Positions 4,791 through 15,270 of a stretch of 37,606 bases of DNA are shown piece after piece. A model generated the notes under the pieces. It saw nothing but the letters and a program-made list of their open reading frames with translations, did no database searches and was not told the DNA's origin. The stretch spans positions 1-37,606 of the forward strand of contig JABCZY010000009.1 in assembly GCA_013289395.1 (NCBI GenBank), given 5' to 3'. The translations under genes and the position numbers were made by a program. Positions within the stretch are counted from its first letter, which is position 1. Every line of letters begins with the position of its first letter. Source of the DNA: Bacteroidota bacterium. GTDB lineage: Bacteria > Bacteroidota > Bacteroidia > JABEUT01.

Positions 4791-5657
4791 TTAAACAGTA
4801 TCAAGGAATGTTCTTTCCTTGTAATTGAATAGTGCCAGTCCTGTAATAAAAACAATAGCAGCAAATGCTGTTGAATACATAAGGTGGTAGATGTTCAATT
4901 CGCCTGAATTCAGAAAAATATAACGTACGGCTTCAATAATAGAACTCATGGGGTTAGCCAGTATTATTGTTCTGCGAATGCCTGATGTGGCAGATAATGG
5001 AATAATAACCGGGCTTAAAAACATGGCCAGTTGAACAGCGAATGCTACCAGGAATGTAAGGTCGCGGAATTTTGCAGAAAGTGAAGAAATAAGTATACCC
5101 ATACCCATACCCATAAGCACAGCTAAGAGTAAAAGTACCGGCATTAACAGTAATAATAGGGGATTAATATGGATAGGAATTGATTTAAAGAACACATAAT
5201 AAGCCAATAAAAGCAGGAACACCGAGAACTGAATGCAAAAGGAAATGAAGTTTGAAATAATTACCGAGACAGGTATTGTTAAGCGCGGGAAGTAAACCTT
5301 TTCGTATAAACTTGCATTAGCTAAAAATGTATTTGATGTTTTAATTAAAGAGCTTGAAAAAAGATTCCACACAACAATGCCCGACATATAGAACAGCACG
5401 TGAGGTGTACCCCCGGAAGAGCCATTCATCATGCTTCCGAAAATAATAGTGAAAACAAGTGTGGTCAGCACAGGTTGTATAATGAACCATGCAGGGCCGA
5501 GTACAGTTTGTTTATAGGTAACAGTAATGTCTCTTTTTACAAACATCAAAATAAGATCCTTATACTTCCATATCTTAGAAAGGCTAAGTGAAAGCGTAAC
5601 CTTATCGGCCTCTATTATTGTATCCCAGTATTCTTTCTCTTCAGTTTCCTGTTTCAT
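4791..5657 (-). CDS. ABC-2 type polysaccharide/polyol-phosphate export permease (Wzm/TagG-like)
   Basis: Inner-membrane permease of an ABC exporter for O-antigen- or teichoic-like glycans, 288 aa. A cytoplasmic N-terminal segment ends in the family motif WKYKDLILMFVKRDITVTYK, followed by GPAWFIIQPVLTTLVFTIIFG at the first membrane span. About six membrane spans follow. The conserved LSAKFRDL loop and a C-terminal NPMSSIIEAVRYIFLNSG element are visible. The matching ATPase (Wzt/TagH) is not in the window, so it must be encoded elsewhere. Start 18 bases after the TPR gene and stop 22 bases before the glycosyltransferase gene suggest co-transcription. The substrate is unknown. Confidence 0.9.
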   Translation of the reverse strand: MKQETEEKEYWDTIIEADKVTLSLSLSKIWKYKDLILMFVKRDITVTYKQTVLGPAWFIIQPVLTTLVFTIIFGSMMNGSSGGTPHVLFYMSGIVVWNLFSSSLIKTSNTFLANASLYEKVYFPRLTIPVSVIISNFISFCIQFSVFLLLLAYYVFFKSIPIHINPLLLLLMPVLLLLAVLMGMGMGILISSLSAKFRDLTFLVAFAVQLAMFLSPVIIPLSATSGIRRTIILANPMSSIIEAVRYIFLNSGELNIYHLMYSTAFAAIVFITGLALFNYKERTFLDTV

Positions 5658-5675: not shown

Positions 5676-6440
5676 TCAGTCCATTTTTGCAAGCAGTTTT
5701 TTTGCTTTGTCTTTTACGTTCTGAGCGTCGTCACCCTTATAGGTAGTATTACCTATTATCTTCTGCAGCCATATTTTAGCGTCAGAATATTTGTCCATTT
5801 CATAATACGTATTAGCAAGCTCATACTGGTGGATCAAATAGTCCGGTGAGTATACAACTGCCTTTTCAAAAGCGTTTACTGCATCTTGGTAAGTAGCTTC
5901 AGGAAGACTTGCTCCATAAAGAGCTTTAACAGCAAATTTTTCAACACCACTGAACTCAGCCAGCCTTCTGCACCAACGGCCAAGTAAATGATATGCGCCC
6001 GAATGCCCCGGATCCTTCTTTAAACATTTGTCAATTTCATCCTTCATTATTTTGGCATTGGCAATTTGCTGCTTGTGGCTTGCAAATTCATTCAATGAGC
6101 CCACAACAAAAGCGTAAGCATAATGTGCTTCGGCATCACCACTATCCTTTTTTAAGGCCTTTTTTGCAAGGTATAATGCCGTGTTGTAATAAGGCGTTGA
6201 TTGACTTTCATCTACTTCTTTATCATGCCATACTTTAGCCAGCAAATAGCTATTGTATTCAAGGTAGCTGATGTTATTTGAGTCTTGTTTTAACAAGCCT
6301 TGTACAATACCCAATGCCTCTTTACATTGGCCCAAGGTAGCCAGTTGAATACATTTTTTTAATTGATCGGCATTGCTTTGCGCTGTTGCTGCAAAACTTA
6401 AACCGGTAAATAAGCCAATTGCCAGGATGATTTTCTTCAT
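5676..6440 (-). CDS. Secreted/periplasmic TPR protein resembling the eukaryotic RMDN (FAM82) family
   Basis: 254-aa helical-repeat protein with a clear signal peptide (about 1-20, ending ATAQS), so it is exported. The rest is a TPR solenoid: ALGIVQGLLKQDSNN, a middle pair around ALYLAKKALKKDSGDAEAHY, then DKCLKKDPGHSGAYHLLGRWC (HLLGRWC at 151-157) and a last repeat around NAFEKAVVYSPDYL. The HLLGRWC...EF..VEK.A..ALYG..LPEATYQDAVNAFEKA pattern is what I recall from human regulator-of-microtubule-dynamics proteins 1-3 (HLLG-W-C, then a xTxExAL-F-A block). This is recollection, not a search. The start lies 8 bases after the lpdA stop, so it is probably in the lpdA transcript. The partner protein is unknown. 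Confidence 0.8.
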   Translation of the reverse strand: MKKIILAIGLFTGLSFAATAQSNADQLKKCIQLATLGQCKEALGIVQGLLKQDSNNISYLEYNSYLLAKVWHDKEVDESQSTPYYNTALYLAKKALKKDSGDAEAHYAYAFVVGSLNEFASHKQQIANAKIMKDEIDKCLKKDPGHSGAYHLLGRWCRRLAEFSGVEKFAVKALYGASLPEATYQDAVNAFEKAVVYSPDYLIHQYELANTYYEMDKYSDAKIWLQKIIGNTTYKGDDAQNVKDKAKKLLAKMD

Positions 6441-6448
6441 TATGTTTT

Positions 6449-7834
6449 TTATAGATGTATTACTTCACCATACGCTGCAGCGGTAGCTTCCATAATAGCT
6501 TCGCTCATGGTAGGATGTGGGTGAATTGATTTCAATATTTCGTGTCCGGTTGTTTCCAGTTTACGTGCAACAACTATTTCAGCTATCATTTCGGTAACGT
6601 TATAGCCGATCATGTGCGCTCCAAGTAATTCACCGTATTTGGCATCGTAAATAACTTTTACAAAACCGTCTTTTGCACCAACACCGGCTGCTTTGCCCGA
6701 TGCTGAGAATGGGAACTTACCAACTTTAATTTCATAACCTGCTTCCTTAGCTGCTTTTTCAGTATAGCCAACGGAAGCAATTTCGGGTTGGCAATAGGTA
6801 CAACCCGGTATGTTCTTATAATTGATTGGGTCAGGATTCTGACCTGCCATTTTTTCTACGCAGGTAATTCCTTCTGCACTGGCAACGTGTGCCAAGGCTT
6901 GACCGGGAACACAATCGCCAATGGCATGTATACCCGGAATGTTTGTTTGATAGTACTGGTTAACTACAATTTTACCTTTATCAGTTACTACACCTACATC
7001 TTCCAGGCCAATGTTCTCAAGGTTAGATTGAATACCAACTGCTGATAATACAACATCACATTCAACAACCGATTCTCCGTTCTTGTCCTTTATCTTCACC
7101 TTACAACCTGCACCTTTGGTATCAACTTCTAATACCGATGCTTCGGTACGTACTTCAATACCTATTTTAGCAAATGACTTAGCCAATTGCTTTGATACTT
7201 CTTCATCTTCAACAGGAACAATATTTGGCAACATCTCCACCAGGGTTACCTTAGTACCCATAGTTGCATAGAAATATGCAAACTCTGATCCTATTGCACC
7301 TGAACCAATAATTATCATTGATTTTGGTGTTTGAGGCAATACCATTGCTTCTCTGTACCCTATAATCTTTTTACCGTCTATTTTAAGGTTAGGCAGTTCG
7401 CGCGATCTTGCACCTACAGCCACAATAATGTTCTTTGCTTCGTAGTCGGTTGCTTTTCCGCCATCGGTTACTTCAACCTTTTTACCGGCTTTCAGTTTAC
7501 CATTACCTTTTATAACGTCGATCTTATTCTTCTTCATTAAAAACTGTACGCCCTTGCTCATGCCATCGGCAACGCCACGGCTACGTTTAATAACAGCAGG
7601 AAAATCAGCTCCTCCGCCATTTACCTTTATGCCATAATCGGCAGCATGCTTCAGGTATTCAAATACCTGCGCGCTTTTTAATAAGGCTTTGGTTGGTATA
7701 CAGCCCCAGTTAAGGCAAATACCACCCAGCTCGGCACGTTCTACAATAGCCGTTTTCATTCCTAATTGCGATGCCCTTATGGCAGCAACATATCCGCCGG
7801 GACCGCTTCCTATAACAATCAGATCGTAATTCAT
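6449..7834 (-). CDS. lpdA: Dihydrolipoyl dehydrogenase (E3)
   Basis: Flavoprotein that reoxidises dihydrolipoamide of 2-oxoacid dehydrogenase complexes and/or the glycine cleavage system, producing NADH in the cytoplasm. 461 aa, the usual length. Visible elements: FAD site GSGPGGYVAAIRASQLG (about 10-25), redox disulphide GGICLNWGCIPTK with C40 and C45, NAD site IIIGSGAIGSEFAYFYATMG (about 174-193), second FAD motif IHAIGDC, and the C-terminal catalytic HPHPTMSE with its His-Glu dyad. All key residues are present. It is the first gene of a minus-strand run of four. No E1 or E2 gene is nearby, so it may serve several complexes. The upstream 113 bases are AT-rich and shared with a divergent gene. 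Confidence 0.97.
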   Translation of the reverse strand: MNYDLIVIGSGPGGYVAAIRASQLGMKTAIVERAELGGICLNWGCIPTKALLKSAQVFEYLKHAADYGIKVNGGGADFPAVIKRSRGVADGMSKGVQFLMKKNKIDVIKGNGKLKAGKKVEVTDGGKATDYEAKNIIVAVGARSRELPNLKIDGKKIIGYREAMVLPQTPKSMIIIGSGAIGSEFAYFYATMGTKVTLVEMLPNIVPVEDEEVSKQLAKSFAKIGIEVRTEASVLEVDTKGAGCKVKIKDKNGESVVECDVVLSAVGIQSNLENIGLEDVGVVTDKGKIVVNQYYQTNIPGIHAIGDCVPGQALAHVASAEGITCVEKMAGQNPDPINYKNIPGCTYCQPEIASVGYTEKAAKEAGYEIKVGKFPFSASGKAAGVGAKDGFVKVIYDAKYGELLGAHMIGYNVTEMIAEIVVARKLETTGHEILKSIHPHPTMSEAIMEATAAAYGEVIHL

Positions 7835-7947: not shown

Positions 7948-8589
7948 ATGATAGAATTGAATGATGCAGATATCCTTCCTGATGACTTAAAGGCTTTATT
8001 TGATAGCTTAGATTATGAAGAAGAGGGTGGTTTAGGAGTCGATTTAATAGAGTATCTGAGTAATGAAGTTCATCTAACATTTTCTTTGTCTCTTGGCGAT
8101 ATAAGTCAACAATGGCAATTACAGATTCTAAATTATAAAGGGTCTAAAATTGATATAGATAACCTAGGTGGTTACTTTAAATTCTATTCGAGCCATTATC
8201 TGATGTATGAATATTTAGATAATTCGACAGAGCTATACGTCAAAAAAGGATGTGATAACCCCGAACAATTGCTTTCTGAAATATATAAACTACATAACAC
8301 GGTTTTTGAAAACTATATTCCGCTAGAAAGATTTTTAAATGGAGATGACTTGTTGAAATGCTGTAAGTCCCAGTTTGGCCTATTTGCTCGTGGTCCTAAG
8401 GGAATTTTGAGTTACTATTTCGAATGCTTAAAAAAAATGGGAAATGAACCTTATTATATAGGAGACTATACATTAACTGAATGGGATGGAACAAAGCAAA
8501 TCCCCACAAATAAGGATTTGAAATTGATAATAATTGGCGGAACTTATTTTGTCGGACAATCATTTGTTTTTAAAAGAATCAGTAAATAG
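7948..8589 (+). CDS. Hypothetical protein, 213 aa, not recognised
   Basis: I do not recognise this family. It is a soluble protein with no signal peptide or membrane span. The first 30 residues are acidic (LNDADILPDDLKALFDSLDYEEE), the middle is mixed alpha/beta, and the C-terminus has an LKLIIIGGTYFVGQ strand-turn-strand. Its codon use looks more AT-rich than lpdA or the M61 gene on either side. It is a single-gene unit with its own -7 box and possibly its own inverted repeat downstream. The size and acidity would suit an immunity or anti-effector protein, but no toxin gene is adjacent and this is only a guess. The ATG at 7948 is well placed relative to the promoter. Confidence 0.7.
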   Translation: MIELNDADILPDDLKALFDSLDYEEEGGLGVDLIEYLSNEVHLTFSLSLGDISQQWQLQILNYKGSKIDIDNLGGYFKFYSSHYLMYEYLDNSTELYVKKGCDNPEQLLSEIYKLHNTVFENYIPLERFLNGDDLLKCCKSQFGLFARGPKGILSYYFECLKKMGNEPYYIGDYTLTEWDGTKQIPTNKDLKLIIIGGTYFVGQSFVFKRISK

Positions 8590-14385: not shown

Positions 14386-15270
14386 ATGAAATATACGATT
14401 ACTGACTTCCGAAAAGATTACGCCACCGAAAACCAATGCTTAGATAGATTATTCCAACTCAAATACGGCAAGTTAGAAGCTTGCCCATCTTGTGGTGTTA
14501 TTAATGCTAAGTTTAAACGAGTTCCTAAAAGACGTTCATACTGGTGTACTGAATGCAATCACCAATTATATCCAACTGCTGGTACCGTGTTTGAAAAGAC
14601 AACCACACCGTTAACACATTGGTTTTACGCTATATTTTTATTTACCACAACAAGGAACGGTGTTGCTGCAAAGGAATTAGAAAGGCAATTAGGTGTAACA
14701 TATAAGACAGCGTGGCGAATGGCCAAGCAAATAAGGCTCCTTATGTCAAATGGGCCTGTTGAAATGCTAAAGGGTGAAGTTATGATTGATGAGACCTTCA
14801 TAGGTGGTCAGGAGAAATTTAAACACAGACATAAGAGGTCAAATGTTGATGGATACATGAAAAGAATCCCTGTATTTGGCATGATGGAGAAGGGTACAAA
14901 TAAAATGATAACAAAGGTTATGAAAGTAGAAGAAATCAAGGCTGCTCACCTTAGACCTATTATTACCAAGAGTATAGATAAGGATTCAATAGTAGTAACT
15001 GATTTGTTTAGGGGTTACATGGGACTGGATAAAGAGTTTAAACAACATGAAACCATTAATCACGCTCAAGAAGAGTATGTTTCAAAGAATGGTTTTACCA
15101 CCAATAATATAGAAGGATTTTGGAGCAGTTTAAAAAGAATGATACGGGGAACACATATACATGTAAGTGAAAAATACTTACCATTATATGTTAATGAAAC
15201 TGCTTTTAGATATATGAATAAGGATAAGGTGGATACAATGTTTAACCTTATTTTGAAGAAGGTTTCTTAG
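14386..15270 (+). CDS. IS1595-family (ISXO2-like) transposase
   Basis: 294-aa transposase of typical length and apparently intact. The N-terminal zinc ribbon has C33-x2-C36 (ACPSCG) and C54-x2-C57 (WCTECN). An HTH-like region follows (GVAAKELERQLGVTYKTAWR). The DDE-type catalytic domain has D135 (MIDETFIGG), D206 (VVTDLFRGY) and the IS1595 third-residue region TTNNIEGFWSSLKR near 239-251, with the later basic stretch MIRGTHIHV. The family ends in DDN(K/H/E) rather than plain DDE. It has its own consensus promoter. A small convergent ORF overlaps its 3' end. I could not find convincing terminal inverted repeats, so the exact element ends are unknown. Confidence 0.92.
   Translation: MKYTITDFRKDYATENQCLDRLFQLKYGKLEACPSCGVINAKFKRVPKRRSYWCTECNHQLYPTAGTVFEKTTTPLTHWFYAIFLFTTTRNGVAAKELERQLGVTYKTAWRMAKQIRLLMSNGPVEMLKGEVMIDETFIGGQEKFKHRHKRSNVDGYMKRIPVFGMMEKGTNKMITKVMKVEEIKAAHLRPIITKSIDKDSIVVTDLFRGYMGLDKEFKQHETINHAQEEYVSKNGFTTNNIEGFWSSLKRMIRGTHIHVSEKYLPLYVNETAFRYMNKDKVDTMFNLILKKVS

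Follow-up and report, generated by a model that had tools for sequence, protein, structure and literature searches.

One gene of a Bacteroidota bacterium encodes a protein that shares its domain family with the TPR domain of eukaryotic RMDN proteins (RMD1-3, among them PTPIP51/RMDN3). The gene lies in the window, the stretch of 37,606 nucleotides that was analysed as a whole, and its features and immediate neighbors are listed in Table 1. The relationship can be found in databases and is not categorically new; Pfam models the family already, which lowers the surprise. New here is the observation that the Verrucomicrobiota gene is often located downstream of a gene cluster that is most likely a pathway for phospholipid acyl-chain modification. 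Among the open-access papers listed in literature searches, none treats prokaryotic RMDN relatives, as judged from titles and the beginnings of abstracts.

Table 1. The RMD1-3 family gene of the window, landmarks in its product, and the adjoining genes. Positions are those of the window; aa, amino acids of the product.
Feature	Positions	Strand	Residues	Basis or remark
RMD1-3 family TPR-type protein, predicted to be exported	5676..6440	-	254 aa	Pfam, PDB search, AlphaFold2 model, fold match
Predicted signal peptide	6381..6440	-	aa 1-20	cleavage between ATA and QS, placed by eye
Pfam PF21033 RMD1-3 match	5754..6182	-	aa 87-229	Pfam search
HLLGRWC motif	5970..5990	-	aa 151-157	sequence
LPEATYQDAVNAFEKA block	5859..5906	-	aa 179-194	sequence
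Pyridine nucleotide-disulphide oxidoreductase, by eye lpdA (dihydrolipoyl dehydrogenase)	6449..7834	-		8 nt upstream of the RMD1-3 gene
ABC-2 type permease	4791..5657	-		18 nt downstream of the RMD1-3 gene

Relationship to the TPR domain of RMDN3

The open reading frame starts with ATG and has no internal stops. The best Pfam family for its product is PF21033 RMD1-3 (E 9.9e-18, 64.7 bits; curated cut-off 26.7), and the top PDB sequence match is human RMDN3 (7cc7; E 3e-16, 63.1 bits), with a designed TPR protein in second place (E 0.002, 21.1 bits). Taken alone, the window protein aligns with RMDN3 over aa 79-229. An earlier note on this DNA, made from the sequence alone, had pointed to an HLLGRWC motif and a LPEATYQDAVNAFEKA block in the product, and both are present. 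The same note held HLLGxWC to be common to human RMDN1-3; the PDB sequence search places HLLGRWC opposite FLLGRWC of 7cc7, so that LGRWC is kept and the leading histidine is not found in the solved human protein. Alignment A1, which comprises 37 bacterial proteins (the window protein, 29 from a phylum-wide search and 7 from the same genus; the starts of rows L015, L021, L025, L026 and L034 were set by hand, without ATG), has G154 of the motif in 37/37 rows, and P180 and A194 of the LPEATYQDAVNAFEKA block are conserved in at least 90% of its rows.

The profile of A1 scores 149.2 bits against RMDN3 in one colinear stretch, from positions 26-246 of 251 in the profile to residues 6-229 of 235 in RMDN3, and the alignment takes in the C-terminal "alelP..t.eD" segment. 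Two long consensus TPR chains reach higher summed scores with the same profile (237.2 and 153.0 bits), and single TPR families in Pfam match the window protein as well, as would be seen if the RMDN match were an effect of repeat composition. The scores of both consensus chains, however, are made up of many short stretches, each of 1-2 repeats and at most 36.6 bits, as opposed to the single colinear match of 221 positions to RMDN3. A control protein with generic TPRs from a Calditrichota locus (L096:8348-9496) does not have RMDN3 among the best 60 of its 226 PDB matches, and PF21033 exceeds its cut-off in 0/14 control genomes. Repeat composition is so improbable an explanation that, on the evidence of the TPR control protein and the colinear profile match, it was rejected. 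The earlier note would have counted generic TPR similarity and nothing more as a refutation; instead, RMDN3 heads the PDB by sequence and by fold, well ahead of the runner-up, and is matched colinearly.

The likeness extends to individual residues. Of 72 bacterial rows, 60% or more agree on one residue at 54 columns, and RMDN3 has that residue at 27 of these; when the letters of RMDN3 were shuffled 2000 times, the mean was 4.5 and the maximum 13 of the 54 columns, a comparison that is generous in that only the real row was aligned. Shared features include the LGRWC motif with the helix pair after it, an A-x-x-x-F-x-K-A block and the C-terminal segment, within a homology that is colinear over nearly the whole domain. 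The bacterial proteins differ from RMDN3 in a GGLP-type loop, with G in 71/72 and P in 70/72 bacterial rows, where RMDN3 reads E and L. They also lack the pre-TPR residues of RMDN3, the aligned part of 7cc7 beginning at entry residue 239, and have a signal-peptide-like N-terminus directly before the domain. RMDN3/PTPIP51 has an N-terminal membrane anchor, an FFAT motif and a coiled coil before its TPR domain. The 254-aa window protein, with its signal-peptide-like stretch directly before the domain, has no room for the anchor, FFAT motif and coiled coil of RMDN3. Microtubule association of the window protein in the periplasm is not expected.

An AlphaFold2 model of the window protein, built from A1, has a mean pLDDT of 93.6 and 12 helices following the signal helix, in keeping with the helical solenoid described in the earlier note. 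Foldseek places 7cc7 first for this model (E 5.8e-10; next 2.3e-6). The VIA comparison, which covered the chains ranked highest by Foldseek, likewise gives 7cc7 as the best match (Z 24.7, rmsd 3.3, 224 residues aligned; next Z 20.5), so that the predicted structure superposes on the RMDN3 TPR domain, the check that the earlier note had suggested. Also high in the VIA list are three bacterial proteins with a similar helical TPR-type fold, namely TPAT (8g52, Z 20.0), BstC (7t1s, Z 20.0) and TatT (3u64, Z 17.9). According to the available text of PMC10942540, the cavity of BstC is hydrophobic and the protein binds sterols. These values would be accounted for if the window protein were, as BstC is, a ligand carrier resembling TatT/TPAT (TRAP T-components) that shares its TPR architecture with RMDN by chance; they nevertheless only tie with that of an ordinary TPR protein (2pl2, Z 20.5). 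At E values up to 1, the window protein has 14 listed Pfam families, none of them a T-component family, and 24 matching PDB sequences, with neither BstC nor TatT among them. The Pfam library presumably holds a T-component family model. Membership in that group thus finds no sequence support in either search and is improbable.

Export, distribution and phylogeny

As far as sequence tells, the family proteins look exported. The window protein has a typical signal peptide by eye, as the earlier note had stated, reading MKKIILAIGLFTGLSFAATA followed by QS, and the mature protein is probably periplasmic. A home-made and lenient export-signal rule (a hydrophobic core plus a small-residue cleavage pattern) accepted 117/120 family proteins versus 79/295 neighboring ORFs of 200-450 aa. 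The control is imperfect: the family proteins were read near the start of the aligned domain, and the control ORFs, which run from stop to stop and may in part not be genes, within codons 1-41. Two of the three rows that failed the rule, L062 and L092, have signal peptides by eye. A lipoprotein reading was rejected, since a crude lipobox test matched 1/120 proteins (L034, inside its hydrophobic core). L007 and L039 are from one genome, and both are counted in the lipobox and export-rule tallies.

PF21033 exceeds its cut-off in 116/296 Bacteroidota genomes, and 137/296 have a match at E ≤0.001. Corresponding counts over the cut-off are 22/40 genomes in the phylum of a Calditrichota locus, 9/115 in that of a Verrucomicrobiota locus and 4/118 in that of a Desulfobacteraceae locus; a Calditrichota genome gives the top scores here, 92 to 93 bits. 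Deinobacterium chartae is the one genome of the 14 controls to match PF21033, below the cut-off, and Caulobacter vibrioides, also among the 14, has no match. A scan of genome contigs from 84,980 species, each represented by a single genome, with a 7-row subset alignment (A2) as query, returned 365 pattern matches, 287 of which are relatives. By title, the best 80 of the 287 comprise 49 Verrucomicrobiota, 9 Calditrichota, 7 Rhodothermota, 4 Bacteroidota, 3 Thermodesulfobacteriota, 1 Poribacteria, 1 Myxococcota and 6 unplaced sequences, with phylum shares that are biased by ranking on likeness to the first A2 row. The earlier note had placed the relatives in Bacteroidota envelopes. This holds for the presence in Bacteroidota and, judged by sequence, for export, and it proves too narrow, as relatives are found in Calditrichota, Verrucomicrobiota, KSB1, Poribacteria and delta-type lineages too. 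L006 (the same gene as L001) and L119 were left out of the family counts, as were three partial TPR ORFs in L096, L098 and L105. A search of 72,556 plasmids at E 1e-5 with one Calditrichota member (L054) gave no plasmid-borne relatives. In Rhodothermota-type genomes, RMD1-3-like genes occur as tandem pairs (L040:5881-7473, L041:5857-7551 and L042:2554-4249).

The phylogenetic tree was calculated from 73 rows, after 48 of 121 domain rows with more than 70% identity to a kept row had been removed. Bacterial groups fall largely by lineage, with Myxococcota and Desulfobacteraceae rows included in the Calditrichota group, and the window protein falls first with its genus and next with further Bacteroidota rows. 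RMDN3, the sole eukaryotic row, has an end branch of 2.94 changes per column, is placed beside another long row, and is in no starred set. The scattered occurrence of the gene among Verrucomicrobiota, and in the phylum to which the Desulfobacteraceae locus belongs, could be read as lateral transfer from eukaryotes to bacteria. Such transfer is highly improbable: the deep bacterial diversity largely tracks lineages in the tree, the family is present in 22 of the 40 Calditrichota genomes and 116 of the 296 sampled Bacteroidota genomes, and all but three of the 120 members have signal-peptide-like N-termini.

Genomic context in Verrucomicrobiota and in the genus of the window

The commonest conserved context in a clustering of neighboring genes is an acyl-modification cluster. 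It was counted in those 44 Verrucomicrobiota loci among the best matches whose upstream sequence is no shorter than 1.2 kb (L048 and L050, which have a CMAS gene and less than 1.2 kb, were left out). In 32 of the 44, a CMAS-type methyltransferase gene on the same strand lies upstream of the RMD1-3 gene, with a gap of at most 150 nt in 23/32 and of 360 to 2048 nt in 9/32. DUF1295 is present in 29/44 and DUF1365 in 22/44 of these loci. In L104 the order is Amino_oxidase-DUF1365-CMAS-DUF1475-DUF1295-CMAS-RMD1-3. The same search found no CMAS, DUF1295 or DUF1365 in the 26 non-Verrucomicrobiota loci of L039-L118 with at least 1.2 kb upstream. Since the 44 loci had been chosen as best matches, an even sample of 115 genomes was added. 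In this sample DUF1365 is present in 7/9 genomes with the RMD1-3 gene versus 16/106 without it (Fisher p 1.5e-4, kinship ignored), and it lies upstream on the same strand within about 5 kb in only 4 of the 9 (G354, G369, G375 and G400).

We take the methylase UfaM of R. sphaeroides to be of the CMAS type. In the available text of PMC7380195, UfaM methylates acyl side chains within phospholipids, UfaD and UfaO, the latter a DUF1365 protein, are required for the onward steps to a furan fatty acid, and furan fatty acids occur in the phospholipids of this organism, with UfaM and UfaO needed. The ufa genes and the Verrucomicrobiota cluster are thus alike in combining a SAM-dependent or CMAS-type methylase with a DUF1365 protein. 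They differ in that an RMDN relative or TPR gene is not named with the ufa genes in that text, where the word "tetratricopeptide" occurs 0 times. The available text of PMC4067076 has CFA, DUF1365 and DUF1295 in one table of genes induced by singlet oxygen in Chlamydomonas. Because of the UfaM and UfaO roles and this gene table, the Verrucomicrobiota cluster is, judged from its predicted genes, most likely a phospholipid acyl-chain modification pathway. The context suggests an old link of the family to lipid handling. Since the 26 other loci are without the cluster and the window gene is flanked by an oxidoreductase, a permease and a glycosyltransferase, the last lying beyond the ABC-2 permease, the link to lipids may be confined to a single phylum.

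No such cluster surrounds the window gene. The lpdA gene adjoins the RMD1-3 gene in 8/8 gene-bearing genomes of the genus and is its only constant neighbor. The ABC-2 permease was rejected as a partner, being unconserved in the roughly 1.5 kb flanks of the genus loci: among the other 7, a related piece is found only in L034, where it is 44% identical and further away. Three of 11 genomes of the order have no match to the RMD1-3 gene at E 1e-10, several of these genomes being incomplete. DUF1365 is present in 10/11 genomes of the genus, including 3/3 without a match to the TPR protein, so that co-occurrence says little in this genus; in the genome of the window it is on another contig than the RMD1-3 gene. 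That copy (G000:C59:9297-10002) is in two pieces in different frames, and is in one piece in 9 other genomes of the genus.

Other genes near these loci were recorded as well. Window positions 7948-8589 hold a 213-aa ORF that is divergent from lpdA and has no Pfam match at E 1e-5, and positions 14386-15270 hold an IS1595-type transposase (DDE_Tnp_IS1595, 119.8 bits) with a zinc ribbon. In eight loci, 7 of them titled as Calditrichota-type, the RMD1-3-like gene is preceded on its own strand by a gene for a related large protein, immediately so in 6. The large protein of L105 (L105:3951-5951), the one scanned, has HEAT repeats and a cyclophilin domain; similar ORFs are in L053, L080, L086, L095, L096, L098 and L099.

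Putative function in the cell envelope

The TPR domain of PTPIP51 binds phospholipids in a cavity and prefers phosphatidic acid in vitro, as given in the available text of PMC9239997, citing Yeo 2021. As the RMDN3 domain carries phosphatidic acid in vitro, a role as an envelope lipid carrier or presenter is proposed for the bacterial proteins. The homology to RMDN3, the signal for export and, in one phylum, the acyl-modification cluster all fit this role. The exported solenoid would hold a hydrophobic ligand in its concave cavity, by analogy with the RMDN3 TPR domain; the ligand would most likely be a phospholipid or an acyl chain, and the bound lipid would be carried or presented within the envelope. 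The Verrucomicrobiota member might then serve products or substrates of the phospholipid acyl-modification operon. Our tentative reading, which we put somewhat short of an even chance, is accordingly worded as a 12-helix RMD1-3 TPR solenoid that is predicted to be exported, is homologous to the RMDN TPR domain, and is a putative lipid carrier or presenter in the envelope. Its weak points are that the cluster was seen near the gene only in Verrucomicrobiota, that the neighbor in the window is lpdA, and that the protein is no more like BstC and the T-components than it is like an ordinary TPR protein.

Most TPR proteins bind peptides. The same homology could therefore belong to a periplasmic scaffold or assembly factor acting between proteins, with the lipid-operon context reflecting envelope maintenance and not lipid binding. 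Neighbors that vary by lineage are consistent with such a scaffold: lpdA in the genus of the window, the HEAT-repeat and cyclophilin protein in the eight mostly Calditrichota loci, and other genes again in the Rhodothermota loci. Against it stand the recurrence of the acyl-modification cluster, more common than any other conserved context, and the closest solved relative, a TPR domain reported in the available text of PMC9239997 to transfer phospholipid. A protein scaffold and a lipid carrier are considered equally likely.

RMDN proteins are found at ER-mitochondria contacts, and the roles reported for them differ (tether, microtubule regulator, phosphatidic acid transfer). A wider view, speculative and on balance unlikely, would make RMDN/PTPIP51 the eukaryotic branch of an ancient family of bacterial proteins that are exported and carry lipids. 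Phospholipid handling would then be ancestral, and microtubule regulation and tethering would not, and the cargo of the bacterial members on their way across the periplasm would be modified phospholipids or acyl chains.

The bacterial family raises the question of the source of the eukaryotic RMDN gene. As a widespread and apparently exported family with the RMDN domain, it offers a simple system for asking what the domain does, and the acyl-modification cluster of Verrucomicrobiota directs that question to lipids. The bacterial branch that looks exported, and its link to a cluster for lipid modification, are what is worth following.
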